A stretch of DNA of 64,000 bases from Myxococcaceae bacterium (lineage in GTDB: Bacteria; Myxococcota; Myxococcia; Myxococcales; Myxococcaceae): NCBI GenBank assembly GCA_016793095.1, contig JAEUJQ010000052.1, positions 124,001 to 188,000 of the forward strand. The letters run 5' to 3'. Within the stretch, counting starts at the first letter, position 1. Every line of letters begins with the position of its first letter. Below, piece by piece: positions 24,494-49,579 of this stretch. The translations under genes and the position numbers were made by a program. The notes beneath the pieces were generated by a model that saw nothing but the letters and a program-made list of their open reading frames with translations, had not been told where the DNA came from and did no database searches.

Positions 24494-24813
24494 GCAGCGG
24501 AAGGTAGCCTTTCCGCCGAGCCCAGCCACTTTGCGACAGCCGGGACGTCCGGGCGTCGCGCGTCGGGCGCCGGGGCCCCGCAGGCCTGCCTGGCCGCAGC
24601 TCGCAGTCCTCGTCGTTGACCCTTCGGAGGGCGGGCTCCAACCACTGGACGTCGCGGCCCTGCGAGCGCACTGGCGCAGGCCCCGGTCGCCGTCGGCGCC
24701 ACCGTCATGCAGCCTGGCCGTTGGACCGGCAGGTCAGGCCGCACGTCCCCGGCAGCACCGGCAACGGCCTCTCCCACAGCCACCGTCGAACCGGGTCTCG
24801 GACTGACTCGCCC
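24494..24813. other. Gene-free stretch between the giant ATPase gene and deoA
   Basis: 320 bases, GC-rich, between two genes on the same strand. It must hold the deoA promoter. Short open frames here have no protein-like pattern. I see no RNA gene, clear promoter or repeat. Confidence 0.4.
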
Positions 24814-27800
24814 TCACTGGCGACGGCGTGAACGACCGCTCAGGCGATCCTCGAGCGCGCGCACCAGCTGGATCGCCTCGTTGATCTGCTGCCACACCAC
24901 CACGGCCTTCATCGCCCCGTCGGAGTCCACCTGCAGCACGCTGCGTGCAGCGGCCGCGAGCGGCGACAGCGTGTCCGACAAGGTGGCGAGCTGGCGACGC
25001 ACCTCGTCAGAGATCGGCGGTGAGGCAGACTTCTGGGCCGGCGGCGACGCCAGCTTCTCGAGCAGGGGCGTGAGATCGGGCTGCGGTGACGGAGGAGGTC
25101 GCTCGATCATCAGCTTCGTGAGCTCGGTGAGCTGCGTCAGCACCGGTGAGAGGTCGATCTGCTGGGCCTGAGCGCGCGCCGCCATCGCCTCGGCGACGTG
25201 CGCGAGCTGGTTGAGCGCCGGCGTGAGATCGACGGGCGGGCGCGCGTTCGCGGCGGCCAGCGACTGGAGCACGGGGCGGAGATCGGGGGCCGGGGCGCTC
25301 TTCATCGCCTGCCCTGCCGCCACCACCGCCTCGCGCAGCTCGTCGAGCTTCGGGCCCAGATCGCTCTGGCGTGGACGCGCAGCGCTGCTGGCGATCGTCT
25401 TCGTGAGCGCCTCGAGGTGCGGGCCGAGCGGCGCCTCCGCGGGGCGCTTCGCCACGTCGGCGGCCGCCTCCCGAATCCGCGACAGCTCCTCGCCCAGGGC
25501 GGCCAGGGTGCCCGTGACGCGCACCACCGGATCGTCGTCCTTCCCGCCCTGCGTCTGCACCCGCTTGTACCCGCGCTTGATCTCGTCCCAACGCGCCTTC
25601 TGCTCGGCCGTCTGCCGCCGCCTCAGCTCGGCGAGCTTGAGCAGGTTCTGCTCGGCCGAGGTCGTCAGGGTCTGCGACTCGCCCGCGTAGTGGGCATCGA
25701 CGAGCGCCTCGAGCTCATCGTTCGTCATCGCCGACACGATCTTCTCGGCGAGCTTGTTCATGTTGCGGTAGCTGCCCTGCAGCTTGAACGGCGGCTCGGT
25801 GCGGAACCGGTCGTCTTGCGAGGCCGACGCGATGTACTCCTGGTTCACCCGCAGGAGCACCTTCTGCACGAAGAACAGCCGCTTCAGCACCTCGACGATC
25901 TCGTTCAGCTCCGCCGCCGAGTAGCCGTGCTCGAGCTCGGTGGTCGCGACAGGCTCGCCAGCGGCCATCTTCAAGAAGCGGGGAATGTCGTCGGGCGGCC
26001 GCGTCGTGAGCGGCGCGGTCACCGGGTTCGCCGTCAGCGAGTTCTCGAGGTAGCTGAGCGCGAACAGCTCGTCCTTCCCGGCGAGGATGTCACCCAGGTT
26101 GTAGGTGTCGGCGCGGTTCGCGAGCATGTCGGGGATCTTGAAGACCTCGCCCGACTCCGTGTACGGGTTGCCGGCCATCACCACGCAGAAGCGCTTGCCG
26201 CGCAGATCGTACGTGCGGGTGACGCCGTTCCACACGCCCTCGATCTTCCGCTGCGCGTCGCAGAGCGAGATGAACTTCTGCAGCAGCTCGGGGTTCGTGT
26301 GCTGAATGTCGTCGAGGTACAGCATCACGTTGTTGCCCAGCTCGAACGCGAAGTTGAGGCGCTCGACCTCGAGGCGCGCGGTGCTGTTCGGCGCGTCGGC
26401 GGGATCGACGCTGACGACCTCGTGGCCGAGCGCGGGGCCGTTCACCTTGACGAAGGTGAGCCCCAGCCTGCTCGCGACGTACTCCATGAGCGTCGTCTTG
26501 CCGTAGCCGGGCGGCGAGACGAGCAGCAGCAGGCCGTTGCGATCGGTGCGCTTGTTCTCGCCAGCGGTGCCGAGCTGCTTGGCCAGGTTCGCGCCGATGA
26601 GCGGCAGGTAGACCTCGCCGATGAGCCGGTTGCGGACGAAGCTCGAGAGCACCTTCGGCTTGAGCTCGTCGATGCGAAGCCGCCGGCGCTCGTGCTCGAT
26701 GACCTCCCGCACCTTCGCGCGGAAGGCCTGCCAGGCGGGCAGCCGCTCACGGACGAAGCGGGCGAGCCGACGTTCGAACTCGTCGAGGCGCAGCGCCAGC
26801 TTCTGCCCCTGAATGCGGGGGTGATTGCCGAGCAGCCCCGAGAGCTCGGTCATCACCAGCGCGGCTGACGGCTCGCGTCCGATCTCGCGCTCCTCGACGG
26901 CGAACAACGCGGCCGCTTCGAGCACAGGCCCCGACGGCGCCCCAGCCTTCGCTGACGCCTCGAGCCACGCGCGGGACAACCGGAACCGCTCGGCCGGCTC
27001 CGTGAGGGTGCGCAGATCGTCGTCGAAGGCACGCCGTTGACCAGACAGCTCGAGCGAGGCGAGCAGCGACTCCTTGAGGGACAACGCTTCCTGGCTGATG
27101 ACGAAGCGCATCGGCTCGCGGCCGAGCTCCTCGGCGAGGTAGCGGCCGGCCAGCACGAGATCGCCGACGGTGGCGTCGAGCTGCGCCGACTTGACCCAGG
27201 CGCCGATGCGGGCGGTCAGCTCGTCGGCCAGGCGCGCGAGCTCTGGCGCGTGACCGTACTGGGCGCGGAGCCGGGCGAGGCTCTGCGCACGCCGCGCCAG
27301 GATCTTCTCGAGGGCCGGCTCCTTCAGGCTCGCCCACGCCAGCGTGGCCAGCACGCGCGGCCAGGCGTCGAAGCGGAGCAGCCCCGCGGACTCGTGCAGC
27401 GTGAGCAGCGCCTCGAGGATCCGGGCGGCGTCGACGTCGTGCACGCCGCGTTCGTAGCCCTCGTCGTAGCGGCGCTGCGCGGCCTCCCGGGTGATGCCCC
27501 CCAGCCCCTTCCCCTCCCGAATGAGCTCGTGCAGCCGCGCGAACGTCAGGCCCTCGGCGCCCGCCTCGGCGGCCGCGAACAACGAGTACGCCAGGTACTC
27601 CGCCCGGCACACGTCGGGCGACTCCGACGGCAGCGCCTGATCCCAGTACGCCTTCGCCGCCTCGACCGCCGGGTCCGAGACCCGCTGGAAGTAGTCCGAG
27701 CCGGTGAGGTGCAGGAACAGCCCGTCGTCCTTCGGCAGCACGGTGGCCTCGAGCGGCTGCGTGCTGACGTTGAAGCGGTGCGGGCCGAAGCGCACCACCG

Positions 27801-30378
27801 CCGTGCCACCCTCGAACAGATCCTTCTTGTCGCGCAGCGCGCGCAGCGCCTCCTGCTTCGCCGTCTTGAAGCGCGAGTCGAGCTCGTCGGCCTTCACCGG
27901 GTCCTTCAGCTCGATGAGCTGCTCGATGAGCTGGCGCAGCTTCTGGGCGGTCGGGTCGGAGGCGAAGTAGGTGTTGAGCTCGTCGTCGGTGGAGAAGCTG
28001 GCGGCGCGGCGCGTGATGCCCTGCAGCACCCGCTCGGCGGCGCCGAAGAGGTTGGCGGCCTTGCGCTGCCGCTCGTCGATCAGCACCTGGCGGCGGCGGG
28101 CGAAGGCGTCGAACAGCTCCTCGCGGCGCTGCGCCAGCTCGACGGCGAACTCGTCGACGTCCGAGAAGCGGCTCTCGAGCTCCTCGAGCTGCACGGACAG
28201 CTTCGCCAGCTGCTCATCGACCTTCTCGGGCGTGTCGGCGAGCGAGAGCGCGCTGTCGATGCTCTGCGCGAACAGCTTGAACTGCGAGGTGAACTCGGCG
28301 CGGGTCTCCTGGCCCAGCAGCTCCTTGCGCCGACCCTGCACGGTGGCGCGCACCCGGTTGAGCTTCGAGAAGACCTCGCTGATGTCCTCGAGGATCTTCG
28401 CCTTCTGCACCGCGTCGCCCGAGGTGAGCCCGCCCACCACCTCGCCGAGCACCGTGAGGCCGGTGCCGAGCCGTTCGACCTCGTCGAGCTGGCCCTTGAG
28501 CTCGAGCGTCTTCGTGGCCTTCGCGATCTCGACGTCGAGCCGCGCGACGGCCTCGTGCAGGGGCTGAAACGCGGCCGGGGTGAGCAGGAACTCGACCGTC
28601 CACGCGCTGACCTGCTCGAAGGCCTTCACCGCGTCGGCCTCGAGGGCGTTGACGCGGGCGAGATCGATGTAGCGGATCTCCTTCAGGGTGATCAGGTGAC
28701 CGCGCTGCTTGCGGAGCGACGCGAGCGCCGTCATCAGCGCGTCGGTCGAGCGAAGGTCGTCCTGCGTCAGCCCGCGGAGCAGCACGTCCTGTTGCTCGAG
28801 GGCCTTCGCCAGCTCTTCGCTGGCGCGCTTCTGCATCGCCAGCACCTTCTCGAACTCGTCGACGATCAGCTCGGCCGACTTCCGAAGCTCCTGCACGCTG
28901 GCGAGCAGCTCGATGTCCTTCTGCCCGAGCCAGTGGAAGGCGTCGGTGACCCGCTGGCAGCCAGAGATGAGGGCTTCGTAGGTGCGCCGCGTGGGCTTGT
29001 CTGCCTCGGCCACGCGCTTGAGGGTGAGGACCTCGGAGATGCCTCGCACGAGCTCGGCGTTGCCCAACTTGCCGAGCGCGCTGTGGGGTGTCGGCTGCGC
29101 GGCCGCGTGCTCCGCGGAGACGAACGGCGTCTGCCAGACCTGCATCGGGTGCACCCGCGTCGGCTCGTCAGACGTCGAGCGGAACACCACCATCTGCCCG
29201 TCGGGGAAGATCGAGTACCCGTGGCAGTGAATGGGCGACGCCACGTCCTTGCGCACGAGGTTGTACGGCAGGAGCACGTAGCGACCGCCCGCGCGCTCAT
29301 AGAAGACGTACAGCACGTCTTCGCCGTTCGGAGACTTCACCGAGCGCTTGAACTCGAGGCCCTGCACGTCGGCGTCGAAGATCTTCACCTCACCCGTCTG
29401 CAGCGCGTAGCCGCCGGGGAAGATGACGCCCTGGTCCTCTGGCAGCTGCACGCACGAGACCCCGATGGGATCGACGCGCGCGACCGTGCTCGAGCGGGTG
29501 TTGAAGACGAGGTAGCGGTACTTCTCCTCACGGAACGGCCGCACCTTCAGGAGAATGAGGGCGCCGAGCCTGGCGTAGTGGAACTCGGCGTCGTCGAGCG
29601 ACTGGGTCGGCTCCTCCACCGGCTCCGAGTAGATGCCCTGCCCCGACTCGGTGTTGTTCTCGACCTTCACGGTGAGGTCGCCCCCCACCGTCTCGATGAA
29701 GACCTCGTCGAGCACGTTGACGTGCGGGTGGCGACCCGACACGAAGTTCTCGCGGGTCGCCTGGGTCCACGTGAAGTCGTGCGAGGGCGCGCGGGGCACG
29801 TCCGTCTCGCCGCGGTTGTCCACGTAGGTGAGGCGGCCTGAGACGTCGACCGAGAAGCGCAGCACCTTGATGTCGCGGGCCGTCTGGCCCGTGCGGAACA
29901 CCGCGAGCAGGCGTGACTCCGTCCTGGTCAGGAGCTCGAGGCGCGCGTCCTTGTAGAACTTGAAGAGCTCCTCGAAGTCCTTCACGAAGCGGCGGTCTTC
30001 GAGGAAGCCGCCGGCAGCCCCCGGCGGCAAGAGGGAGAAGTCGAAGCCCCCCTCGGGCGTGCGGGCGAAGGTGTGCAGCGAGAAGACGTCGCCGACGGCG
30101 CGCTCCTGCTTGAGGCCCATGAAGACGTTGAAGCCGAGCAGCAGTGCGTTGCCGACGGGCACGATGTTGCGCGGCACGCAGTTGTTCTCGGTGCGCACGC
30201 GCTCGGTGCCGCTGACGGTGAGCTCCTGGCCGCCGAACTCCTTGCGCCGTCGCTCGTTGAGCGCCTCGACCTGCGTCCCCAGCGCCTTCGCCTGGGCGAG
30301 GAGCCGGCCGCGGATCACCTCATAGCTGCCCCCCTCGAGCGTGGACTCGCCCGAGGGGGTCTTCACGTCGGTGGCCAT
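24814..30378 (-). CDS. Giant DUF3686/AAA+ ATPase, DNA repair ATPase family
   Basis: 1854 residues. The N-terminal part (about 15-480) fits the DUF3686 family, annotated in Pfam as an ATPase involved in DNA repair although direct proof of that role is lacking. A long helical/coiled-coil section (about 480-860) and a further helical region lead to an AAA+ module with Walker A SPPGYGKT (1288-1295) and Walker B MLYLDD (1352-1357, acidic DD), both intact, plus an NP/sensor segment MAGNPYTE. The C-terminus (about 1645-1775) is a Pro/Ala-rich repeat region (DLxPxLxxL). It is the last gene of the YqiJ-like/flotillin operon, 16 bases after the flotillin stop. A membrane-linked motor or remodelling role is inference. 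Confidence 0.85.
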   Translation of the reverse strand: MATDVKTPSGESTLEGGSYEVIRGRLLAQAKALGTQVEALNERRRKEFGGQELTVSGTERVRTENNCVPRNIVPVGNALLLGFNVFMGLKQERAVGDVFSLHTFARTPEGGFDFSLLPPGAAGGFLEDRRFVKDFEELFKFYKDARLELLTRTESRLLAVFRTGQTARDIKVLRFSVDVSGRLTYVDNRGETDVPRAPSHDFTWTQATRENFVSGRHPHVNVLDEVFIETVGGDLTVKVENNTESGQGIYSEPVEEPTQSLDDAEFHYARLGALILLKVRPFREEKYRYLVFNTRSSTVARVDPIGVSCVQLPEDQGVIFPGGYALQTGEVKIFDADVQGLEFKRSVKSPNGEDVLYVFYERAGGRYVLLPYNLVRKDVASPIHCHGYSIFPDGQMVVFRSTSDEPTRVHPMQVWQTPFVSAEHAAAQPTPHSALGKLGNAELVRGISEVLTLKRVAEADKPTRRTYEALISGCQRVTDAFHWLGQKDIELLASVQELRKSAELIVDEFEKVLAMQKRASEELAKALEQQDVLLRGLTQDDLRSTDALMTALASLRKQRGHLITLKEIRYIDLARVNALEADAVKAFEQVSAWTVEFLLTPAAFQPLHEAVARLDVEIAKATKTLELKGQLDEVERLGTGLTVLGEVVGGLTSGDAVQKAKILEDISEVFSKLNRVRATVQGRRKELLGQETRAEFTSQFKLFAQSIDSALSLADTPEKVDEQLAKLSVQLEELESRFSDVDEFAVELAQRREELFDAFARRRQVLIDERQRKAANLFGAAERVLQGITRRAASFSTDDELNTYFASDPTAQKLRQLIEQLIELKDPVKADELDSRFKTAKQEALRALRDKKDLFEGGTAVVRFGPHRFNVSTQPLEATVLPKDDGLFLHLTGSDYFQRVSDPAVEAAKAYWDQALPSESPDVCRAEYLAYSLFAAAEAGAEGLTFARLHELIREGKGLGGITREAAQRRYDEGYERGVHDVDAARILEALLTLHESAGLLRFDAWPRVLATLAWASLKEPALEKILARRAQSLARLRAQYGHAPELARLADELTARIGAWVKSAQLDATVGDLVLAGRYLAEELGREPMRFVISQEALSLKESLLASLELSGQRRAFDDDLRTLTEPAERFRLSRAWLEASAKAGAPSGPVLEAAALFAVEEREIGREPSAALVMTELSGLLGNHPRIQGQKLALRLDEFERRLARFVRERLPAWQAFRAKVREVIEHERRRLRIDELKPKVLSSFVRNRLIGEVYLPLIGANLAKQLGTAGENKRTDRNGLLLLVSPPGYGKTTLMEYVASRLGLTFVKVNGPALGHEVVSVDPADAPNSTARLEVERLNFAFELGNNVMLYLDDIQHTNPELLQKFISLCDAQRKIEGVWNGVTRTYDLRGKRFCVVMAGNPYTESGEVFKIPDMLANRADTYNLGDILAGKDELFALSYLENSLTANPVTAPLTTRPPDDIPRFLKMAAGEPVATTELEHGYSAAELNEIVEVLKRLFFVQKVLLRVNQEYIASASQDDRFRTEPPFKLQGSYRNMNKLAEKIVSAMTNDELEALVDAHYAGESQTLTTSAEQNLLKLAELRRRQTAEQKARWDEIKRGYKRVQTQGGKDDDPVVRVTGTLAALGEELSRIREAAADVAKRPAEAPLGPHLEALTKTIASSAARPRQSDLGPKLDELREAVVAAGQAMKSAPAPDLRPVLQSLAAANARPPVDLTPALNQLAHVAEAMAARAQAQQIDLSPVLTQLTELTKLMIERPPPSPQPDLTPLLEKLASPPAQKSASPPISDEVRRQLATLSDTLSPLAAAARSVLQVDSDGAMKAVVVWQQINEAIQLVRALEDRLSGRSRRRQ
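25054..25446 (-). repeat. C-terminal DLxPxLxxL repeats of the giant ATPase
   Basis: Six copies of a degenerate 18-26-residue unit: PLGPHLEAL, SDLGPKLDEL, PDLRPVLQSL, VDLTPALNQL, IDLSPVLTQL, PDLTPLLEKL, each followed by an Ala/Lys/Pro spacer. The unit resembles a short amphipathic helix repeated as a docking tail. Function unknown. Confidence 0.7.
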
Positions 30379-30394
30379 GGCGACAGGGCCCTCG

Positions 30395-32506
30395 TCACTT
30401 CGACGGCTTCTTGTCCTCGTCGCGCACCAGGCGGCTCATCAGCGCCGCCGAGGCGAGGTTCTGCACGTCCTGGCTGGCGCCCGGCTTCGACAAGATCGCC
30501 TTCAGATCGTCCGGCAGCGAGCGACCGCCCTTGAGGTACTCCTTCAGCAGCACCTGCAGCTGGTCGGAGTTGTTCACCGCGCCGTCGACGGACTGGCCGA
30601 GGGTGACGGCCTTGACGAACTGGTCGAAGAAGGCGCCGTCTCCGCCGACGATGTTGATCTTCGCGTTGGCCATGGCCTGGGCGAGCACCTGGGCCTGCGC
30701 TGCGGCGATGTCCTTCTTGACGTGCAGGGCCTCGAGCTCGACCTGCTTGTCCTTGTCGAGGCGCAGGCGGAACTCCTCGTGCTCGCGGGTGACGCCCTCG
30801 AGCTGCTTCATGGCCTCGGCCTTCTCGGTGAGGCCGCGCGCTTCGGCGAGCAGCTTCTCCTGAACGCCCAGGGCCTCGGCCTGCACCTTCGCCTTGACCG
30901 CCTCGGCCTCGGCGAGCCCGCGGCGCTGCACCACGTCGGCCTCGCCCTGCTCCACCGTGATGCGGGCCATGCCCTTCTTCTCTTCGCCCTCGGCCTCGGC
31001 CAGCAGCTTCACCTTGAGCGCGTGGGCGTTGGCCGACCCCTGCTTCTCGATGGCCTGCGCCTCGGCTTCCTTCACGCGCACCAGCGCCAGGCCCCGCTTC
31101 TCTTCGGCGATGGCCTGGGCCTCGAGGACGCGCGCCTTCGCGAGCCCCTCGGCGGCCTGCTCGGCCTGCACACCCTCGGCGAGGCGCATCTTCGCGCGGG
31201 CCTCCTTGTCGGCGGCCTCGAGATCGGCCTCGGCCTCGATGAGGCGCTGCTTGGCGGTGTGGCGGGAGACCTCCTCAGCGGCCTCGGCGGCCTTCACCTG
31301 CGCGACCACGCTCTGCTGGGCCTGCGCCTCGGCGTCGATGATGGTGGCCTCCTTGTTGCGCTGGGCCTCGGCCACCTTGCGGAGCTGCTTGATCGCCTCT
31401 TCCTCGGCGGCGACCTTCTTCTCGACGGCGATGCGCGTCGAGACGACGTCGGCGATGGCCTTGCGCTCCTGCTCGAGCGCCTTCTCCTTGGTGATGCGCT
31501 GCAGCTCGACCTCGCGCTCGCGGGCGATGGCCTCGAGGTCGCGGTCCTTCTGCACGCGCTCGGTCTCGATGCCGACGACGCGCTCGCGGTTCTTCTGGGC
31601 CACCTCGACCTGCCGCGACTTGTTCTGCTCGTTGATGAGGATCTCTTCGTCGGCCTTGATGCGGGCGACCTCGGCCTTCGTCTTCTCCTCCTGCTGCACG
31701 CGCTGCGTCTCGGCGAGCTCTCGCGCCTGGATCGTGTCGATCTCGCGCTTCTGCTTCGCCGCGGCCTCGGCGCGCTGCCGCTCGAGCGCAAAGACGGCCT
31801 CGTCGGCCTCGACGTTCTGCTTGGTGATCTGCTTGCGCTCGGTCTGGCGGAAGTCGTTGGTGAGCACGTTCTGCTGGGTCGTCAGCTCGGTGATCTTCCG
31901 GATGCCCGCCGCGTCGAGGATGTTCTCGCGGTCGAGCAGGTCGAGCGGCGTCTGCTCGAGGAAGTCGATGGCGGCGTCTTCGAGGTTGTAGCCGTTCAGA
32001 TCCTTGCCGATGACCTGCACGATCTGATCCTTGAAGGCCTCGCGCTCCTTGTAGAGATCTTCGAAGTTGAGGCGCTTGCCGACGGTCTTGAGGGCCTCCG
32101 AGAACTTCGCCTCGAAGAGCTCCTGCAGGGTGCGCTCCTCGGACGCACGGGCGCAGCCGACCGACTGGGCGACCTTGAGCACGTCTTCGACGGTCTTGTT
32201 GACGCGCACGAAGAAGCTCACCTTGATGTCCGCGCGGATGTTGTCGGCGCAGATCAGGCCTTCCTTGCCGCGGCGGTCGATCTCGATGGTCTTCAGCGAG
32301 ATGTCCATCACCTCGGCGCGATTGATGATCGGGAGCACCACCGAGCCGGTGAAGGCGACCTTCGGTTCCTTGCCCATCGTGTTCACGATGAGGACCTGGC
32401 CCTGGCTCACCTGCCGGTAGAAGCGGCTGATCACGACGCCGACGAACAGCACGAGTACGAACCCGGCGACGACGACGCCGCCGACGATCCACGCAGTCTC
32501 TGACAT
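30395..32506 (-). CDS. Flotillin-family protein (YqiK-like)
   Basis: 703 residues. One N-terminal membrane segment (about 7-27, VGGVVVAGFVLVLFVGVVI), then a band-7/PHB domain (about 28-210; QGQVLIVNTMGKEPKV, IEIDRRGKEGLICADNI), a very long Ala/Glu/Lys coiled coil (about 220-560) and a C-terminal region (LARAMANAKINIVGGDG-like LAQAMANAKINIVGGDGAFF) typical of flotillins. Flotillins scaffold membrane microdomains. It sits between the YqiJ-like gene and the giant ATPase in one operon, as flotillin yqiK sits next to yqiJ in E. coli. Confidence 0.9.
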   Translation of the reverse strand: MSETAWIVGGVVVAGFVLVLFVGVVISRFYRQVSQGQVLIVNTMGKEPKVAFTGSVVLPIINRAEVMDISLKTIEIDRRGKEGLICADNIRADIKVSFFVRVNKTVEDVLKVAQSVGCARASEERTLQELFEAKFSEALKTVGKRLNFEDLYKEREAFKDQIVQVIGKDLNGYNLEDAAIDFLEQTPLDLLDRENILDAAGIRKITELTTQQNVLTNDFRQTERKQITKQNVEADEAVFALERQRAEAAAKQKREIDTIQARELAETQRVQQEEKTKAEVARIKADEEILINEQNKSRQVEVAQKNRERVVGIETERVQKDRDLEAIAREREVELQRITKEKALEQERKAIADVVSTRIAVEKKVAAEEEAIKQLRKVAEAQRNKEATIIDAEAQAQQSVVAQVKAAEAAEEVSRHTAKQRLIEAEADLEAADKEARAKMRLAEGVQAEQAAEGLAKARVLEAQAIAEEKRGLALVRVKEAEAQAIEKQGSANAHALKVKLLAEAEGEEKKGMARITVEQGEADVVQRRGLAEAEAVKAKVQAEALGVQEKLLAEARGLTEKAEAMKQLEGVTREHEEFRLRLDKDKQVELEALHVKKDIAAAQAQVLAQAMANAKINIVGGDGAFFDQFVKAVTLGQSVDGAVNNSDQLQVLLKEYLKGGRSLPDDLKAILSKPGASQDVQNLASAALMSRLVRDEDKKPSK

Positions 32507-32676
32507 GTCCCATCCTCCCCAGGAAGAAGCCTGGTCACCTTATGCTGCGCCGCGCCCCGGGTCGTCGGGTTTCGGCGCAGAGTTGAAGAACACACGCTGC
32601 GGCCCGAGGGCGATTTCCAGCCTTCGGAACCCCTTGAACGGTCGTTTTCAGGTTGATCTCCGTCGACAGGCCAGGC

Positions 32677-33606
32677 TCAGCCCCGCAGCCGCACCCGGGA
32701 AGAGATCACCTGGTGCGCGCGCGCCGGATCGTTGAGGGCGTCGAGCTCTTGCGGCTCGAGCCAGTCGATGGGCTCGATCTCCCAGGTCTCGGTCTTCTCG
32801 TCGAAGTCGATGATGAGGGCCTTGTCGCCCTTCTTGAGCTGGTTGGCCTTCGCGCAGACGACGTGCAGGTTGAGGCCCGCGCCGCCGTCGTTGACCGTGG
32901 CGGTGCCGAAGCCTCCATCGACGCGCCCCGAGCTCACCTCGCAGACCTTGCCGATGAAGTGGTGGCGCCGCGCGGGGGGCGCCGACGTGAACGCCTTCAC
33001 CAGGGGCCTGATGGCGACCGACGTGGCGAGGAGCGAGAGCACCATGGCGCCCAGCAGCACGCCGCCCTTCGCCGGCAGGCCCGCGTCCGCGCCCAGCCAC
33101 GAGGAGCCGAACATCGAGAAGACCCACGAGAAGAAGACGAGGAAGCTGCCCGAGATGGTGGAGGGCACCTTGCCGAAGCCCAGCACCGACAGCACGCCGT
33201 CTCCGGTGCCCGCGGCGCCTTCGCCCGCCGTCTTCACGGCCTCGCCCGCCGCCTTGGCGCCGCCCGTGACCGCGTCGCCCGCGGCCTTCACACCTCCCGT
33301 CACCGCGTCGCCCGCGGCCTTCACGCCCCCCGCGACTGCATCGCCCGCCGCCTTCACCCCGCCAGCGACCGCGTCCCCCGCCGCCTCCGCGGCCCCCTTG
33401 AGGCCCCCCGTCACCGCGTCGCCCGCCGCCTTCACGCCGCCAGACAGCGCATCGCCCGCGGCCTTGACGCCGCCCTCGACGGCCCCGTCGCCGTCGAAGG
33501 CCACGACGCCCAGCAACACGAAGATCCAGTAGAGGAACGCGATGCCGAGCAGCACCGTGAACGGCACCGCCGGGAACGTCAGCAGCGTGCGCAGGAAGGC
33601 TTCCAT
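32677..33606 (-). CDS. YqiJ-like OB-fold membrane protein with 11-residue repeats
   Basis: 309 residues. Membrane helices at about 10-35, 147-165 and 178-197 bracket a hydrophilic insert (45-125) of seven units of GGVKAAGDAVT (11 residues). The C-terminal part (about 205-305; HHFIGKVCEVSSGRVDGGFG, LKKGDKALIIDFDE) is an OB-fold like that of NfeD/YqiJ partners of flotillins. First gene of the operon, followed by the flotillin gene (170-base gap) and the giant ATPase. It probably partners the flotillin in membrane domain assembly. The insert has no counterpart in E. coli YqiJ as I recall it. Confidence 0.8.
   Translation of the reverse strand: MEAFLRTLLTFPAVPFTVLLGIAFLYWIFVLLGVVAFDGDGAVEGGVKAAGDALSGGVKAAGDAVTGGLKGAAEAAGDAVAGGVKAAGDAVAGGVKAAGDAVTGGVKAAGDAVTGGAKAAGEAVKTAGEGAAGTGDGVLSVLGFGKVPSTISGSFLVFFSWVFSMFGSSWLGADAGLPAKGGVLLGAMVLSLLATSVAIRPLVKAFTSAPPARRHHFIGKVCEVSSGRVDGGFGTATVNDGGAGLNLHVVCAKANQLKKGDKALIIDFDEKTETWEIEPIDWLEPQELDALNDPARAHQVISSRVRLRG
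33232..33474 (-). repeat. 33-base coding repeat (11-residue units) in the YqiJ-like gene
   Basis: Seven in-frame units GGVKAAGDA(L/V)(S/T/A), the third one extended by four residues, the last altered to GGAKAAGEAVK. An 11-residue period with small residues, Lys and Asp recalls the helical 11-mers of alpha-synuclein and LEA proteins. Confidence 0.85.
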
Positions 33607-33625
33607 CGGCGTGACGAGACCACGA

Positions 33626-33641
33626 GTCGGCGCCCGCCGAC
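33626..33641. promoter_or_regulatory. Perfect inverted repeat upstream of the YqiJ-like gene
   Basis: GTCGGCGCCCGCCGAC, 6-base arms around a 4-base centre, lies 20-35 bases before the start codon of the first gene of the flotillin operon. It may be an operator or a leader hairpin; in GC-rich DNA such short repeats can arise by chance. Confidence 0.3.
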
Positions 33642-33687
33642 AGAGGAATAGGTGCGGTGGAGACGCGCTGTGGCGTGCGGCATTGCC

Positions 33688-34563
33688 TCAGGCGCGCGCG
33701 CGCAGGCCGAGAATCGTCCGGGCCTCGGCTGGCGTCGCGATCGTGCGACCGGCGGCGAGGGCCGTCTTCGCGAGCGCGTCGATCAGCTGCCCGTTGCTCG
33801 AGGCCTTCGTGCCGTCGGGCAGGTAGAAGGTGTCCTCCAGCCCGGTGCGAAGGTCGCCGCCCAGCTCGGCGCAGCGCTGATGCAGCGCCCAGACCTCCTG
33901 GCGCCCGATGCCGATCACCTGCCAGTGCGTGCCGGGCAGCATCTCCTCGAGCAGCAGCGGCAGCCACGCGGGCTTGTTCGGCATGCCCGACTCGACGCCC
34001 ATCACGAGCGAGACGTGCGGCGGCGTCGGCACCGTGCCCCGCCTGGCGAACATCGCCACGCTGCGGAGGATGCCGGTGTCGAAGCACTCACACTCGGGCA
34101 CCACGCCGTTGGCCTTCATCACCTTCTCAAAGGCCTCGATCTTCTCGACCGGGTTGTCGAAGAGCATCGGTGGCCAGGCCCAGTCGTTGTTGGAGCGCAG
34201 CTTCAGGTAGTTGAGCGAGCCCGCGTTGAGGGCCGCCAGCTCGGGCTTCACCGCCTCGAGGCACGAGGCCGGCCCGCTGATGTCGTCGCCGACGACGCCG
34301 GTGGACAGGTTGATGAGAAGGTCCGGGCACTCGGCGCGGATAGCGTCGCACACCTTCTTCGCGTCAGCGGGATCCCAGCTCGGCAGCCGGCCCATGCCGG
34401 GCGCCTGGTTGCGCACGTGCACGTGGACGATCGACGCGCCGGCGTCGCGCGCGCGTCGCGCCTCTCGCGCCATCTCTTCCGGCGTGACCGGCACGCCGTG
34501 CTGCGCAGGATCCGTGAGCACGCCCGTCAACGCACACGTCAGCACTGCCTTGTTCGTCGCCAT
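33688..34563 (-). CDS. BKACE-family beta-keto acid cleavage enzyme
   Basis: 291 residues, standard for the BKACE/DUF849 (Kce-type) family, Zn-dependent enzymes that condense a beta-keto acid with acetyl-CoA. TCALTGVLTDP and the metal-binding HVHVR (His47, His49) are present, and the C-terminal GIGRQEVW and GLEDTFYL segments fit. Substrate cannot be predicted. A palindrome with a candidate -35 element lies 22-37 bases upstream of ATG 34563. Confidence 0.85.
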   Translation of the reverse strand: MATNKAVLTCALTGVLTDPAQHGVPVTPEEMAREARRARDAGASIVHVHVRNQAPGMGRLPSWDPADAKKVCDAIRAECPDLLINLSTGVVGDDISGPASCLEAVKPELAALNAGSLNYLKLRSNNDWAWPPMLFDNPVEKIEAFEKVMKANGVVPECECFDTGILRSVAMFARRGTVPTPPHVSLVMGVESGMPNKPAWLPLLLEEMLPGTHWQVIGIGRQEVWALHQRCAELGGDLRTGLEDTFYLPDGTKASSNGQLIDALAKTALAAGRTIATPAEARTILGLRARA

Positions 34564-34584
34564 GGGCTCAACGTATGGCGACGA

Positions 34585-34600
34585 TTGACTCGTGAGTCAA
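34585..34600. promoter_or_regulatory. Palindromic operator-like site overlapping a candidate -35, BKACE gene
   Basis: TTGACTCGTGAGTCAA, 14 of 16 bases symmetric. On the minus strand it supplies -35 TTGACT; 17 bases later CATACG is a weak -10 candidate (34562-34567 side), 8 bases before the ATG, so the transcript could be almost leaderless. The same TTGAC-N6-GTCAA form occurs upstream of fadI (53216-53233). Confidence 0.5.
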
Positions 34601-34608
34601 CGAGGCAG

Positions 34609-36045
34609 CTACCAGCTCTGCCGCAGCGGCTTGCCCTCGTCGAAGCCCGCCGCGCCCTGCACGCCCACCAGCGCGTTCTGGTGCAGCTCCTCGAGCGTCG
34701 AGGCGCCCGCGTAGGTGCACGCGCTCTTCACGCCCGCGACGATGTGATCGATCAGATCCTCGACGCCGGGCCGCTGCGGGTCGAGGTACATGCGCGAGGT
34801 GCTGATCCCCTCCTCGAAGAGCTCCTTGCGGGCGCGCTCGAAGAGGGAGTCCTTCGCGGTGCGGGCCTTCACCGCCCGCTGCGAGGCCATGCCGAAGTTC
34901 TCCTTGTAGAGTCGGCCGTCGCCGTCCTGGCGGATGTCGGCGGCGCTCTCGTAGGTCCCGGCGAACCAGGAGCCGATCATCACCGTGCCGGCGCCGGCGG
35001 CGAGGGCGAGGGCGACGTCCCGTGGGTGGCGAATGCCACCGTCGGCGCAGATCGAGCGGCCCCGCTTGCGCGCCTCGGCTGCGCAGTCGAGCACGGCCGA
35101 GAACTGCGGTCTGCCGACGCCCGTCATCATGCGCGTGGTGCACATCGCGCCCGGGCCCACGCCGACCTTCACCAGATCGGCGCCGGCGGAGATGAGATCG
35201 GCGGTGCCCTCGCGCGTCACCACGTTCCCCGCCATCACCGGCACCTTCGGCGAGAGCGCCCGCACGGCCTCGACGGCCTCGAGCATCTTCCGCTGGTGGC
35301 CGTGGGCCGCGTCGATGACGACGAGATCGATGCCCCACTCGAGCAGCGCCTTCGCGCGCCCCACCACGTCGCCCGAGATGCCGACCGCGCCGGCGACGAC
35401 CAGCCGGCCGCTCGCGTCCAGCGCTGGTTGATAGAGCGTCGATCGCAGCGCGCCCTTTCGCGTCACCACGCCGACGAGCGTCTTCCCGCGCAGCACGGGC
35501 GCGCACGACAAGCGCTTCACGGCGAGGCGCTCGTAGATCGTCTCGAGCGGCGTGCCCTCCTCGAAGGACAGCAGCTCGGTGGACATCACCCGGTGCAGCT
35601 GGGTGAAGCGATCGTGCCCCTCGGCGTCGTGCTCGGTGAAGACCCCGACCGGCTCCTTCGCGTCGTTCACCACGATCACCACGCCGTGCGAGCGCTTGTG
35701 GATGAGGTTGAGCGCGACCTGCAGCGTCTCGGTGGGCTCGAGGGTGATGGGCGTCTCGTAGACGGGGTGGCGCGACTTCACGTACGCGATGTTCTGCTGG
35801 ACGATGTCGAGCGGGATGTCCTGCGGCAGCACGGCGATGCCGCCGCGGCGCGCCACGGACTCGGCCATGCGACGGCCCGCGACCGCCGTCATGTTCGCGA
35901 CGACGATCGGCGTGGTGAGACCCAGCCCGGGCGGCGGCCGCAGATCGACCTCGTGCCGCGACCCGATCTCCGAGCGCGTCGGGGCCATGAAGACGTCGGC
36001 GTAGGTCAGCTCGTACGGCGGGGCCTGGTCGTCGAGGAATCGCAT
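34609..36045 (-). CDS. guaB1: IMP dehydrogenase-like GuaB1 family protein with CBS domains
   Basis: 478 residues. The TIM-barrel of the IMPDH/GMP reductase family has the catalytic-Cys loop GVGPGAMCTTRMMTGVG and the phosphate-binding ADGGIRHPRD. A CBS pair (about 90-215; VMSTELLSFEEGTPL) is inserted. The N-terminus (FLDDQAPPYELTYADVFMAP) is typical of the GuaB1 group, whose studied actinobacterial members act as GMP reductases, so purine salvage is more likely than IMP oxidation. It stands 45 bases upstream of the BKACE gene end-region on the same strand. Confidence 0.85.
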   Translation of the reverse strand: MRFLDDQAPPYELTYADVFMAPTRSEIGSRHEVDLRPPPGLGLTTPIVVANMTAVAGRRMAESVARRGGIAVLPQDIPLDIVQQNIAYVKSRHPVYETPITLEPTETLQVALNLIHKRSHGVVIVVNDAKEPVGVFTEHDAEGHDRFTQLHRVMSTELLSFEEGTPLETIYERLAVKRLSCAPVLRGKTLVGVVTRKGALRSTLYQPALDASGRLVVAGAVGISGDVVGRAKALLEWGIDLVVIDAAHGHQRKMLEAVEAVRALSPKVPVMAGNVVTREGTADLISAGADLVKVGVGPGAMCTTRMMTGVGRPQFSAVLDCAAEARKRGRSICADGGIRHPRDVALALAAGAGTVMIGSWFAGTYESAADIRQDGDGRLYKENFGMASQRAVKARTAKDSLFERARKELFEEGISTSRMYLDPQRPGVEDLIDHIVAGVKSACTYAGASTLEELHQNALVGVQGAAGFDEGKPLRQSW

Positions 36046-46178: not shown

Positions 46179-46300
46179 GAGCACGCTCGGTCAGCGACCG
46201 CTTCGAGCCCCCGCGGCCGGGGCGGGGGCGTGGTGCGCGTCACCGACACGGACCTCCTGCAGCGCGCCGGGCTCGGGTCCGACGTCACGCCTGCGACGCC
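46059..46300 (+). repeat. Duplication of a gene's 3' end
   Basis: Copy 1 (46059-46172, inside the lipoprotein gene) and copy 2 (46199-46300, non-coding) begin CGCTTCGAGCCC and end CTGCGACGCC; copy 2 has lost about a dozen bases near its end and several substitutions. Copy 2 abuts the stop codon of the next gene on the other strand. Confidence 0.85.
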
Positions 46301-48852
46301 TATTGAATGCTCGGCTCGCAGGTGCAGGTGGCCTGCTTGCACGACAGCCCGGCACCGCAGGTGTTGCCGCAGTTCGGCGCGCAGACGCACGACCGGCTGT
46401 TCGGATCGCACACGAACGGCGCGACGCACGTGGCGCCGCACGGGTCGCCGTTCGCGTCGGGGCTGTTGTCGATCCAGTACCGGTACGAGACCGCCACCTT
46501 CGCGCCCATCATCGGCCGACAGGTGCCGTAGAAGACGATGCGCCGGGTGGCCGAGTCGATGTCCCAGCCGTTCTGGCGGCTGCGCGGCACGTCGGACGTG
46601 TTGCACATGCCCGCGGTGCGCCCGGCCTCGATCGCCACCTTGATCGTCGGGGAGATCGGCGGGCGGTTGAGCTGCCGGCCCGTACCGCCGATCGCCGCGC
46701 TCAGGATCGCGTCGATCACCGCCTCCTGCCGGGCGCGCTGGGTCGCGTTGGGGTTGGGCACGTTGAACTCTTCGATGCTGCCGCTCACCCCGCCCAGCAG
46801 CTGCACCACCGTGGCGTAGGTCGGCGGGTTGGTCTCGGGGGTGCCGTCGCCGCAGTCACGCCCGGCAGGACAGGTGATGCCGTGCGCGATCACCTGGCGC
46901 CCCGAGAAGGTGGCCTGGAGCGATGAGGCGAACTGCTGCGGCGTCGTGGACGACTGATCGCTCGTGTCGGACAGGAAGATCAGGTTCACGTTGGCGTCGG
47001 CGCGGAACGGCCCGCGCTGCTGAGAGCCGGTGCGGTCGATGAAGGCGCGCGCCGAGGGGAACCCGCGCTCGAAGCCGTTGCCGCCCGTGCCGAACCAGTT
47101 CGCGCCGGTGCTCTGATCGAACCAGCTCGCCATGGTGGCCGACATCGTCGTCCACTCACGCGTCGAGCCGGCGTAGCTGCTCGGGTAGTAGCCCGTCGTC
47201 ACCGCCGCGGCGCGCCAGTCGAGCCCGGCCTGGTTCAGCTTGTTGCCGAACAGCGAGCCGGCGTTGCGCACGGCGTCCTGCGACGAGGCCATCGAGCAGC
47301 TGTCGTCCACGACCCACAGGAAGTCCACCTTCGCGTTGGCGGTCGCGGTGAAGGCCTCACACTGGGTCGCCGTCAGATCGCCCGCCTGCGCCACCGCCGT
47401 GCCGCCGCCCACGTCGTCGAGCTGGAAGAGCGCGCCACCCGAGTAGAGCGACGCGGGGATCACGGCGATCACCGTCACTGCTCTCGTCGCGGTGCGGCGC
47501 ACGTACACGGCCTGCACCTTGAACGGACCATTGGTGCCGCCAGCGCCCATGAGCAGCCCACCGGCGTTCATCCCGAGGAAGCGGCGGGCCAGCTCGTTGA
47601 CGGCCTCCTTCACGTCACGGGTCGAGGCGAGATCGTAGCTCGCGCGCACGGCGCCGAAGCCGTCCCACGTGGTGTACGTCTGCGTCAGCGGGAGGCCGAC
47701 GGAGCCAAGGCCGCCCAGGATCGCGCGCGCCGATGTCTCTTCGGCCGACGCGCTCGCGCCCACGCCCATCGTCTTCGAGATGGCGATGCCACCCACCTTC
47801 GCGCTCGGGTTGTAGAAGGCGATGCCGCGCTCGTCGGTGCCCAGGGTCAGCTTCGAGATCTCGGTGAACTCGGGCACCGCGGCGAGCTGCACGTCGGCCG
47901 AGCCCGAGGTGTGGAATGAGACCGGCCTCAGGTTCGCGGTCGAGCACGCCTGCTGCGCGGGGCCCATCGCGTCCATGGAGTCGTTGGGGTTGAGCTCGCC
48001 CATGTCGATGCGGCCGTTGGAGTTCGTGTCTTCGGCCCCGTCGGCGATGCCGTCGCCATCGGTGTCGGCTCCGCAGGCATTGCTGCCGGTCGCCGTGTCG
48101 GCGTCGAACGTCGTCGCGGCGTAGCTGCAGCCGCGGGGGTCGGCGCCTGGCGGCACCAGCTTGCCCTCGACGCCGTCGCTCAGGCCATCACCGTCGGTGT
48201 CCTTCAGGGTCGGGTTGGTCATGCAGCCGGCGGCGCCCATCACCTCCTGCCCGTCGGAGTAGCCGTCGCAGTCGGAGTCCACCCGCAGCGGGTTGGGCTC
48301 GTTCGCCTGCCGGCGCCCGTCCTGATCCGCGTCCTCCTGGCCGTCTCTCAGGCCGTCGCCGTCGGTGTCCGCGTTGGTGGGGTTCGTCTTGCTCGCCGGG
48401 TCGGCGTCGGGGAGGAAGGTCGCGCCACAGGTCGCGTTGGGCGTCATCGTCTTGCCCATCTCGAGCCCATCGGGCAGGCCGTCGGCGTCGGAGTCGCTGT
48501 TGCACGGATCGGTGCGCGCGTTGTTGCCGTAGTCGGTGCCGTACTCCTCGAGATCCGACAGGCCGTCGCAGTCGGTGTCGCGAGAGCCGTTGTCAGCCGC
48601 CATCGGATCGCAGCCGGTCACCATGCGCGGTCCGCCGCCAGCCGAGCCACCGCCGGTGCCAGTACCGCCGGCGCTGTTGGCGCCACCGCCAGCGCCGCTG
48701 ATGCCGCCGCCAGTGCCGGTGCCAGCGCGACACTGCCCGGCGATGCAGCTCTGGCCAGCGCCACACTCAGCAGTGCTGGTGCAGGTGCGGACGGGGGGAC
48801 TGCACGAGATGACGCCAGCGCTGAGCAGCGCGACGAGCGAGAGACGCGTCAT
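46300..48852 (-). CDS. TSP3-repeat / VWA surface lipoprotein
   Basis: 850 residues from ATG 48852, behind a GGAGGAG site. Lipobox VISC near residue 17. Cys- and Gly-rich linker (about 30-75), then thrombospondin type 3 calcium-binding repeats (about 90-290; DTDGDGLRDGQED-type DxDGDG). A later VWA-like domain has MIDAS motif WVVDDSCSM (DxSxS). Cys-rich C-terminus (VCAPNCGNTCGAG). Likely an outer-surface adhesive or calcium-dependent protein. Its 3' end meets the duplicated tail of the previous lipoprotein gene. Confidence 0.85.
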   Translation of the reverse strand: MTRLSLVALLSAGVISCSPPVRTCTSTAECGAGQSCIAGQCRAGTGTGGGISGAGGGANSAGGTGTGGGSAGGGPRMVTGCDPMAADNGSRDTDCDGLSDLEEYGTDYGNNARTDPCNSDSDADGLPDGLEMGKTMTPNATCGATFLPDADPASKTNPTNADTDGDGLRDGQEDADQDGRRQANEPNPLRVDSDCDGYSDGQEVMGAAGCMTNPTLKDTDGDGLSDGVEGKLVPPGADPRGCSYAATTFDADTATGSNACGADTDGDGIADGAEDTNSNGRIDMGELNPNDSMDAMGPAQQACSTANLRPVSFHTSGSADVQLAAVPEFTEISKLTLGTDERGIAFYNPSAKVGGIAISKTMGVGASASAEETSARAILGGLGSVGLPLTQTYTTWDGFGAVRASYDLASTRDVKEAVNELARRFLGMNAGGLLMGAGGTNGPFKVQAVYVRRTATRAVTVIAVIPASLYSGGALFQLDDVGGGTAVAQAGDLTATQCEAFTATANAKVDFLWVVDDSCSMASSQDAVRNAGSLFGNKLNQAGLDWRAAAVTTGYYPSSYAGSTREWTTMSATMASWFDQSTGANWFGTGGNGFERGFPSARAFIDRTGSQQRGPFRADANVNLIFLSDTSDQSSTTPQQFASSLQATFSGRQVIAHGITCPAGRDCGDGTPETNPPTYATVVQLLGGVSGSIEEFNVPNPNATQRARQEAVIDAILSAAIGGTGRQLNRPPISPTIKVAIEAGRTAGMCNTSDVPRSRQNGWDIDSATRRIVFYGTCRPMMGAKVAVSYRYWIDNSPDANGDPCGATCVAPFVCDPNSRSCVCAPNCGNTCGAGLSCKQATCTCEPSIQ

Positions 48853-48922
48853 GGTTGAGAACTCCTCCAAAGTTGCTGCCTGCCGCGACTTCGAGCGGCG
48901 GCCCCTTTTGACGAGGCGGACT

Positions 48923-49579
48923 CTACGCACACTCCGCGACGAAAAGTACATGGGGGGTGGTGTATCCGCGGTGCATCGACGCGCTCTCGCGAACTGAGAA
49001 ACCTGTCTTCTCCAGTTCACGGTGCAGCGTCTCGCGCGGCTCGAAGCCGAGGGCGCCACTCTCGCGGGTGCGCCGGAGCAGCCGCACCATCACCTGCTCC
49101 TGCCAGAGGGCCGTCTTCGCGCGCCACGAGCCGTCGTTCTCGGCCTCCTTGATCACCAGGCGCCCCCCGGGGACGAGCAGGGCGCGACACGCGGCGAGGA
49201 AGGCGCCCCACTCGAACGGCGGGAGCAGGTAGAGCACGTCGGCGACGAAGAGGCAGTCGAAGCGGCCGGGCTCCTTCGCGGCGAGCTCGTGCACGGTGCC
49301 GACCTCGAGGCGCACGTTGGGGAAGCGGCCGACGGAGCGCCGCGCCCAGTCGATCTTCCGCGCGTCGGGATCGAGCCCGACCACCTCGCGCTCGGGGAAC
49401 CCCACGGCGAGGAGCGCGGTCAGCACCCCGTGGCCACAGCCGAGATCGGCCAGGCGCCTGCCCTTCGCGCGGGCAGCCAGCGCTTCCAGCGGCGCTGAGA
49501 AGAGCCGCGCGTGCACGAAGAGGCGCTCCTGAACGGGCAGCGGCTCGAAGGCGGCCAGTGAGGGGTGGAAGCCGCGCAC
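48923..49579 (-). CDS. SAM-dependent methyltransferase
   Basis: 218 residues from GTG 49579. Class I fold: ADLGCGHGVLTALLA (SAM motif I), VVGLDPDARKIDWA and FDCLFVADVLYLLPP. Small-molecule or lipid methyltransferase; substrate unknown. It starts 2 bases after the fadJ stop and so is probably the third gene of the fad operon. Confidence 0.8.
   Translation of the reverse strand: MRGFHPSLAAFEPLPVQERLFVHARLFSAPLEALAARAKGRRLADLGCGHGVLTALLAVGFPEREVVGLDPDARKIDWARRSVGRFPNVRLEVGTVHELAAKEPGRFDCLFVADVLYLLPPFEWGAFLAACRALLVPGGRLVIKEAENDGSWRAKTALWQEQVMVRLLRRTRESGALGFEPRETLHRELEKTGFSVRESASMHRGYTTPHVLFVAECA

Follow-up and report, generated by a model that had tools for sequence, protein, structure and literature searches.

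What does a giant ATPase, whose family carries a DNA-repair label, do beside the genes for a flotillin and a small membrane protein? The question is raised by a three-gene unit in a 64,000-nucleotide stretch of DNA (the window) from a Myxococcaceae bacterium (GenBank assembly GCA_016793095.1, contig JAEUJQ010000052.1, positions 124,001 to 188,000 of the forward strand), in which the frames for a YqiJ-like protein, a flotillin, and a DUF3686/AAA+ ATPase are all open and consecutive on the minus strand. A preliminary description made from the sequence alone had presented the unit as the best candidate in the window for an undescribed multi-gene system and had proposed a survey of gene neighborhoods, in which proximity of the ATPase gene to the other two at chance level would refute the idea. 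Our surveys support a near-obligate partnership of ATPase and flotillin with the small protein as the usual third member: adjacency is far above chance in the phylum of the window and in pseudomonadotal and actinobacterial genome sets.

A scan of genome contigs yielded at least 592 stretches with at least 559 relatives of the ATPase; the best 80 were kept, so that this survey favors close relatives, and 70 of them had at least 3.5 kb of upstream DNA (10 were dropped). In 65 of these 70 loci, a flotillin frame on the same strand ends no more than 700 bases from, or overlaps, the start of the ATPase frame. In four further loci, the flotillin lies upstream on the same strand at a distance of 2.0 to 6.3 kb; in the last (L065), the locus lacks it and the genome has one elsewhere. 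A homolog of the YqiJ-like protein is present in 68 of the 70. Rearranged loci (L015, L018, L063, and L082) carry open reading frames (ORFs) between flotillin and ATPase; among the ORFs scanned from three loci there was no conserved extra gene: every match was to something different (OmpA, CopD-like, a weak lectin-like match, hydrolase, NYN, and amidase), and two fell below cut-off.

Among 195 genomes of the window's phylum, the ATPase was recovered in 93, the flotillin (subfamily cut-off, E ≤ 1e-60; overlap with the ATPase compared by eye) in 95, and both in 92. The single genome with the ATPase alone (G147) has a contig end at the gene, and the three with the flotillin alone comprise one with a contig end at the gene (G194), a fragment (G017), and a weak match (G144). 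Counted by genus, 24 of 90 have the ATPase and 26 the flotillin, with 23 shared. The two genes lie on one contig in 85 of the 92 genomes with both. Elsewhere, a contig end inside the flotillin splits the pair (G067), both genes stand at contig starts in the orientation expected from a break between them (G012 and G134), or they fall on different contigs (four genomes of family f25, G183 to G186). In two of the last (G183, loci L112/L113; G185, loci L114/L115), the ATPase is apart from the flotillin/small-protein pair, both being kept, and no partner occurs within the 14 to 16 kb fetched.

The other two genome sets were drawn evenly from the phyla of Cellvibrio (L035) and Streptomyces (L042). 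Eight of the 299 pseudomonadotal genomes have the ATPase and 36 a flotillin match; in the same eight, the best flotillin match scores 693 to 869 bits and is adjacent to the ATPase, whereas the other 28 score 124 to 207 bits and come without the ATPase. Judged from these scores, the flotillin forms a subfamily of its own, separate from YqiK and linked to the giant ATPase. Among 198 actinobacterial genomes, eight have the ATPase and the same eight the flotillin, always adjacent; two actinobacterial genomes have two ATPase copies each, every copy beside its own flotillin (in G680 the frames for flotillin are broken, and G626 has one short ATPase frame, of 622 amino acids [aa]). The ATPase and flotillin distance matrices correlate at r = 0.93 over 74 loci against a maximum of 0.11 in 500 permutations, and those of the small protein correlate with them at 0.84 and 0.81, respectively; all of these values include shared species history. 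Because nearly all sampled genomes with this flotillin subfamily also have the one giant ATPase, what was a vague "scaffold" becomes one half of a machine open to purification and assay.

The partnership extends to a plasmid collection, where 12 records carry a relative of the ATPase and the same 12 have a close flotillin beside it; the remaining 292 of the 304 plasmid flotillin records are absent from the ATPase matches, and the eight of these among the matches listed are partial, at 28 to 29% identity. Carriage on plasmids, together with the best match in a PADLOC scan of the ATPase (LmuB, E = 9e-6, residues 484 to 854), could suggest an antiphage or conflict system, an explanation that we hold to be very improbable. 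All PADLOC matches are weak; the one to LmuB falls in a helical part that resembles a coiled coil, and the rest fall in the P-loop. Six of the 12 plasmid-collection records exceed 1.6 Mb, and in the family of the window (f1) the gene is present in 84 genomes, with 12 listed as lacking it, a distribution that is core-like rather than that of a sporadic defense island.

The unit cannot be called undescribed, because Ravi et al. (2024; PMC11237479), in the portion of their article available, report the same operon from comparative genomics of phage-shock (PspA) neighborhoods. Their CesT/Tir-PspA and band-7 operons likewise combine a YqiJ/YuaF-like protein with three transmembrane (TM) segments, a band-7 plus flotillin protein, and an AAA+ ATPase with a beta-propeller and a coiled coil; unlike them, the window locus has no adjacent PspA gene, and "abbreviated" versions without PspA are also described there. 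In the available part of that account, the small protein is presented with no mention of a long repeat loop such as that of the window protein. The unit is best classed as an operon of a kind already known, in which the small subunit has taken a myxobacterial form; relative to the available text of PMC11237479, the present analysis adds a predicted NorQ/CbbQ-like fold and counted co-occurrence.

Domain architecture of the three proteins

A Pfam scan of the ATPase recovered DUF3686 (PF12458; E = 7e-199; 661 bits against a curated cut-off of 25), DUF7902 (residues 603 to 686), and AAA (residues 1284 to 1363). The Walker A (SPPGYGKT, residues 1288 to 1295) and Walker B (LYLDDIQH, residues 1353 to 1360) motifs are intact, as first described, and these motifs, the sensor-1 Asn1404, and Arg1422 are identical in 85 or 86 of 86 aligned ATPases, with the exception of Leu1355 (62 of 86); part of the Walker A/B conservation is due to selection, because the two scan patterns lie in those motifs. 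The nearest named full-length relative among the best 80 comes from a metagenome-assembled genome of the Archangiaceae (84% in the best segment, residues 1 to 1854).

The predicted structure of residues 1 to 880 (predicted local distance difference test score [pLDDT], 86.5; predicted template modeling score [pTM], 0.61) contains a beta-propeller followed by a long helical part, in agreement with the propeller and coiled coil named in the available sections of Ravi et al. DUF3686 itself models as the propeller, whose best structural match is the WD40 domain of DCAF1 (Z = 10.2; root mean square deviation [rmsd], 6.4; 219 residues aligned). The model of residues 890 to 1640 (pLDDT, 87.0; pTM, 0.70) holds the AAA+ core, for which ranks 1 to 10 of the structural alignment are all NorQ or CbbQ (Z = 14.3 to 17.0; rmsd, 3.2 to 3.9; 15 to 17% identity), the best being NorQ (Z = 17.0; rmsd, 3.6; 240 aligned). 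Dynein follows at a Z of 13.5 and below, and then classical AAA or Clp chains at about 12 to 13. On this predicted fold, the core is likely, if not certainly, of the MoxR type. It shares with NorQ and CbbQ the AAA+ fold and a beta-hairpin before the sensor-1 strand and differs from them in its fusion to an N-terminal propeller and long helical part and in having a flotillin as its partner. MoxR-type AAA+ proteins usually have adjacent VWA partners, and NorQ and CbbQ each serve single enzymes. By analogy with the latter, the ring could be a maturation chaperone that assembles, or adds a cofactor to, one membrane complex, with the flotillin as its platform. The titles of the matched structures, which name Rubisco activase and NorQD, speak for such a role as do the closest folds; we nevertheless find it distinctly unlikely, given that the rearranged loci share no common client gene, their ORFs between flotillin and ATPase being different.

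The remaining label of DUF3686, that of a DNA-repair ATPase in Pfam and NCBI annotation, finds no support in the modeled propeller, long helical part, and AAA+ core nearest to NorQ and CbbQ, and we give it hardly any credence. In its favor, beyond the name itself, are the first place of RuvB by E-value in the Foldseek list for the AAA+ part and the contact with RuvB at the P-loop when searching by sequence. Against it stand the near-obligate membrane-protein partners and a Pfam scan with no DNA-binding domain above cut-off in the ATPase; the 50 rows of the second structural alignment do not include RuvB, an absence that decides nothing by itself. That scan also returned no peptidase family at E ≤ 1, and by hydropathy the ATPase has no TM segment. 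No paper on DUF3686, and none joining "DNA repair ATPase" with flotillin, was found in the full-text literature searched. Of 43 papers that bring together two among flotillin, MoxR, and NfeD, the 10 listed make no mention of MoxR.

The C-terminal extension of the ATPase measures 127 to 265 residues in the 13 myxobacterial ATPases listed and a median of 99 (0 to 397) in 69 others; the lengths overlap, and it is therefore no clean myxobacterial marker. Four other myxobacterial ATPases (L017, L018, L019, and L065) have a common C-terminal domain with no match in the window copy; that of L017 resembles PilZ just below cut-off (E = 0.002; 18.9 against 22.5 bits), which hints at control by cyclic di-GMP.

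The flotillin gave no family in a whole-protein Pfam scan, probably because its coiled-coil composition trips a filter. Its N-terminal 230 residues, scanned separately, matched Band_7 at 60 bits against a cut-off of 23.6, in the same place as in the genome search, and Band_7 is found at E ≤ 0.001 in 20 of 20 aligned members, which bears out the flotillin domain of the preliminary description. Sequence searches against solved structures recovered only QmcA, weakly (E = 0.008), and nothing with the SPFH part alone. Hydropathy places the N-terminal TM at residues 7 to 25, followed by SRFYRQ.

In the small protein, hydrophobic regions were recognized at residues 4 to 43 and 176 to 199 with a strict threshold and a third at about residues 149 to 167 by eye. 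Its designation as YqiJ-like is less firm than that of the flotillin: no curated model came near a cut-off with the window protein, YqiJ_N matched 3 of 38 members (best E = 0.0026), and pairwise BLAST against YqiJ gave 18 bits only. An hhalign comparison of the 38 aligned small proteins with Escherichia coli YqiJ reached a probability of 93.5, and the gene lies beside a flotillin, so that a YqiJ relationship, weak by curated models, is suggested by profile similarity and position. Searches by sequence against solved structures gave nothing convincing. The locus resembles E. coli yqiJ-yqiK in the order of small protein and flotillin, in the identity of the flotillins (29% over 463 columns), and in the profile match to YqiJ; unlike it, no ATPase gene adjoins the pair in K-12. 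In the available part of PMC2636767, YqiJ-YqiK and YuaF-YuaG are SPFH2-NfeD2 pairs, and a figure legend states that additional genes may have been omitted. After TM3 of the small protein comes a stretch with four Lys/Arg and no Asp/Glu, the TM2-TM3 loop being neutral. Because of this basic stretch and of SRFYRQ after the flotillin TM, the soluble parts of both proteins are predicted to be cytoplasmic, like the ATPase.

The repeat loop of the myxobacterial small subunit

The repeat noted earlier in the small protein is real: a 33-bp tandem repeat (33242 to 33386) encodes 11-residue units in the loop between the first hydrophobic region and that at about residues 149 to 167. The helical moment of this loop at 98.2 degrees is 0.318, against a maximum of 0.200 in 10,000 shuffles; since repetition itself raises the moment above that of shuffles, the result speaks for a periodic pattern that has a hydrophobic phase and not for binding to membranes. 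For comparison, 103 loops were taken from 110 proteins (seven were lost) and four duplicates were removed; the borders were set with a regular expression, by which at least two loops were cut wrongly (L034 too short and L101 too long). The median length is 69 residues (47 to 128) in 41 myxobacterial or likely myxobacterial loops and 32.5 (6 to 57) in 58 others. The group of 41 takes in four loops of unconfirmed phylum (L012, L013, L014, and L020), and without them (37 versus 58) the medians are again 69 and 32.5. The strongest lag is 11 in 19 of the 41, many others favoring 4, 8, or 12, and at least two G-x-K motifs occur in 23 of the 37 versus none of the 58, a pattern picked after the loops had been seen. 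Length and Gly/Ala richness are maintained across loops that diverge in sequence. On these comparisons, myxobacteria have expanded the YqiJ-like loop into Gly/Ala-rich, often 11-residue repeats. Judged from the basic residues after TM3, the repeat and the C-terminal domain would lie on the cytoplasmic side, and the repeat may lie on the membrane surface.

Perilipin 4 and alpha-synuclein have 11-residue repeats that form lipid-dependent helices (PMC5889406, in the part available), with the 3-11 helix periodicity and weak amphipathicity to which the loop can be likened; the loop differs in being bacterial, set between TM1 and TM2, Gly/Ala-rich, and often net acidic. This is an analogy of pattern without homology, a Perilipin match in Pfam having an E of 0.8, far below cut-off. 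It is a long shot that the myxobacterial small subunit, through a perilipin/synuclein-like helix, detects loosely packed membrane or the surfaces of lipid bodies and positions the flotillin cage with its MoxR-type ATPase at such sites, as a convergent bacterial counterpart of coat-plus-AAA remodeling systems. The loop is a removable segment, and its removal should alter where the complex sits.

Possible functional readings of the unit

We see about an even chance that the unit encodes an assembly of the flotillin/NfeD type, set at the cytoplasmic side of the membrane, that works with a MoxR-like remodeling ATPase in quality control of the membrane or of membrane proteins. The flotillin would sit in the inner membrane with its N terminus outside and its SPFH domain and coiled coil inside and, with the YqiJ/NfeD-like partner, would build a cage or corral like those of other SPFH-NfeD pairs. 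On this cage the giant ATPase would dock via its propeller and coiled coil, and its ring would spend ATP on remodeling or setting free what is held there, be it proteins or assemblies bound to lipid (e.g., PspA filaments). What the sequences show are the genes themselves, the near-obligate pairing, the domains, and the loop peculiar to the lineage; topology, cage, docking, clients, use of ATP, contact with the membrane, and physiological role are inferred. Published background on SPFH-PspA links, cages, and chaperones (PMC10936438, PMC13086221, PMC11222466, and PMC8581546, each in the parts available) is consistent with single steps: the E. coli YbbK-YbbJ SPFH-NfeD cage consists of 26 heterodimers and protrudes into the cytoplasm (PMC13086221), a Bacillus subtilis SPFH protein brings PspA to the membrane (PMC8581546), and Staphylococcus aureus flotillin holds unfolded proteins (PMC11222466, whose section headings name FloA-NfeD). 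In Shewanella oneidensis, iron metabolism and sensitivity to hydrogen peroxide are reported to change on deletion of SO1377, a band-7 gene whose neighbor is a DUF1449 gene (PMC1468410, in the part available). HflK/HflC-FtsH likewise joins an SPFH assembly to an AAA+ enzyme at the membrane; it differs from the present ATPase, which has neither a peptidase domain nor a TM segment by hydropathy, and the HflK/C-FtsH complex extends into the periplasm (PMC12048511, in the part available). Should the ATPase act on flotillin-held clients, bacterial flotillin domains would gain an energy-driven partner besides FtsH, and the "DNA repair ATPase" annotation of the family would be misleading.

Several observations weigh against this explanation. 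S. aureus flotillin works without ATP according to the available text of its authors (PMC11222466), and what is known of flotillins thus gives no reason to expect a partner that uses energy. Walker B ends in Asp-Asp instead of the usual Asp-Glu, and for this reason the ATPase could hydrolyze ATP slowly or not at all. Placement in the MoxR type depends on the predicted fold, because the sequence profile meets classical AAA proteins near Walker A: it overlaps with NVL, Rix7, and Cdc48 in little beyond that region, sequence searches of solved structures gave only P-loop-region matches to RuvB, NVL, Rix7, and Cdc48-type proteins, and AAA_3 (MoxR) matched at E = 0.17 (12.2 bits against a cut-off of 27), below AAA and AAA_5. 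As for the loop, the helical moment reaches p < 0.01 in only 8 of 41 (33 do not), compared with 0 of 7 other loops of at least 40 residues, and the window loop (residues 38 to 147) is net acidic (9 Lys/Arg, 13 Asp/Glu), as are, strongly, some others, which favors neither a cytoplasmic side nor binding to acidic lipids. In 47 of the 70 loci, the fetched DNA showed no PspA gene, and the sole PspA_IM30 match of the window genome lies on another contig (C15, the window being on C79). Finally, no experiment on a trio of this kind turned up in the full-text literature, which does not cover most subscription papers or any preprints; for this reason, stress repair, the role first suggested for the trio, stays a guess. 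The rest of that suggestion, a membrane scaffold coupled to a giant ATPase, holds insofar as the genes form one conserved unit for which a membrane or envelope role is the most economical reading, given the published PspA linkage (PMC11237479, as available) and the PspA gene in the fetched DNA of 23 of the 70 loci.

In those 23 loci, PspA is a plausible client. A rival account makes it the core of the system: the ATPase would be a Vps4-like motor of PspA/ESCRT-III-type membrane remodeling, and the flotillin and YqiJ-like protein would merely recruit PspA. ATP-dependent, PspA-based remodeling is proposed for PspA-AAA+ associations in the accessible part of Ravi et al. (PMC11237479), Hymenobacter and plasmid pQBR103 loci add to those with a PspA gene, and the Walker A region of the ATPase resembles classical AAA proteins. 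We regard this account as unlikely, since the predicted fold is nearest to NorQ and CbbQ, with proteasomal AAA and Cdc48 chains lower (Z = 12.3 to 13.1), and PspA is absent from all named myxobacterial loci examined as well as from the fetched DNA of the 47 loci. Vps4 is not among the structural-alignment rows listed for the AAA+ core, which is no evidence of its absence. In the pQBR103 locus (L005), the trio ends a long run of YjfI-like, PspA, rhomboid, DUF2491, DUF350, DUF1190, and glutathionylspermidine-synthase genes, resembling a published third group joined to the flotillin group, as far as the available text describes it.

Gene layout and surroundings

The order and 170- and 16-base gaps given in the preliminary description agree with the ORF coordinates (Table 1).

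Table 1. Features of the three-gene unit, in window coordinates
Feature	Position	Strand	Basis or remark
YqiJ/NfeD-like small membrane protein (309 aa), first gene of the unit	32677-33606	-	ORF
11-residue repeats (GGVKAAGDAVx), residues 44-131, TM1-TM2 loop	33214-33477	-	tandem repeat, helical moment
170-base gap, YqiJ-like to flotillin gene	32507-32676	-	
Flotillin (703 aa): one N-terminal TM, SPFH/Band_7 domain, long coiled-coil-like region	30395-32506	-	ORF
SPFH/Band_7 domain (flotillin residues 32-176)	31979-32413	-	Pfam scan of N-terminal piece
16-base gap, flotillin to ATPase gene	30379-30394	-	
Giant ATPase (1854 aa)	24814-30378	-	PF12458, DUF7902, AAA
DUF3686 (ATPase residues 33-482)	28933-30282	-	modeled beta-propeller, about residues 52-418
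AAA+ core (about ATPase residues 1241-1588)	25615-26658	-	predicted fold closest to NorQ/CbbQ
C-terminal extension (ATPase residues 1641-1854), recurring DLxPxLxxL-type segments	24817-25458	-	no domain above cut-off

No match to a sigma-70-type promoter was found in 24600 to 33800, the 170-base gap included; terminator-like sites are at chance level (4 found versus 4.8 expected), and G+C content and GC skew show nothing unusual around the three genes. The AT skew is -0.307 at 30001 to 32000, over the charged coiled-coil part of the flotillin gene, versus -0.12 to +0.12 in the other 2-kb steps.

Upstream on the same strand (33688 to 36045) lie a beta-keto acid cleavage (BKACE) gene and an IMPDH-like gene with CBS domains; matches to the BKACE protein occur in 12 of the fetched loci and to the IMPDH-like protein in 6. 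On a Streptomyces plasmid (L003), the flotillin-ATPase pair is found near potassium transport genes (kdp and trk) and CBS-domain genes, with a TerD-family gene about 4 kb downstream of the ATPase gene. Elsewhere in the window, a 919-aa ORF (46300 to 49059) has as its sole match a bacterial TSP3 repeat, just below cut-off.

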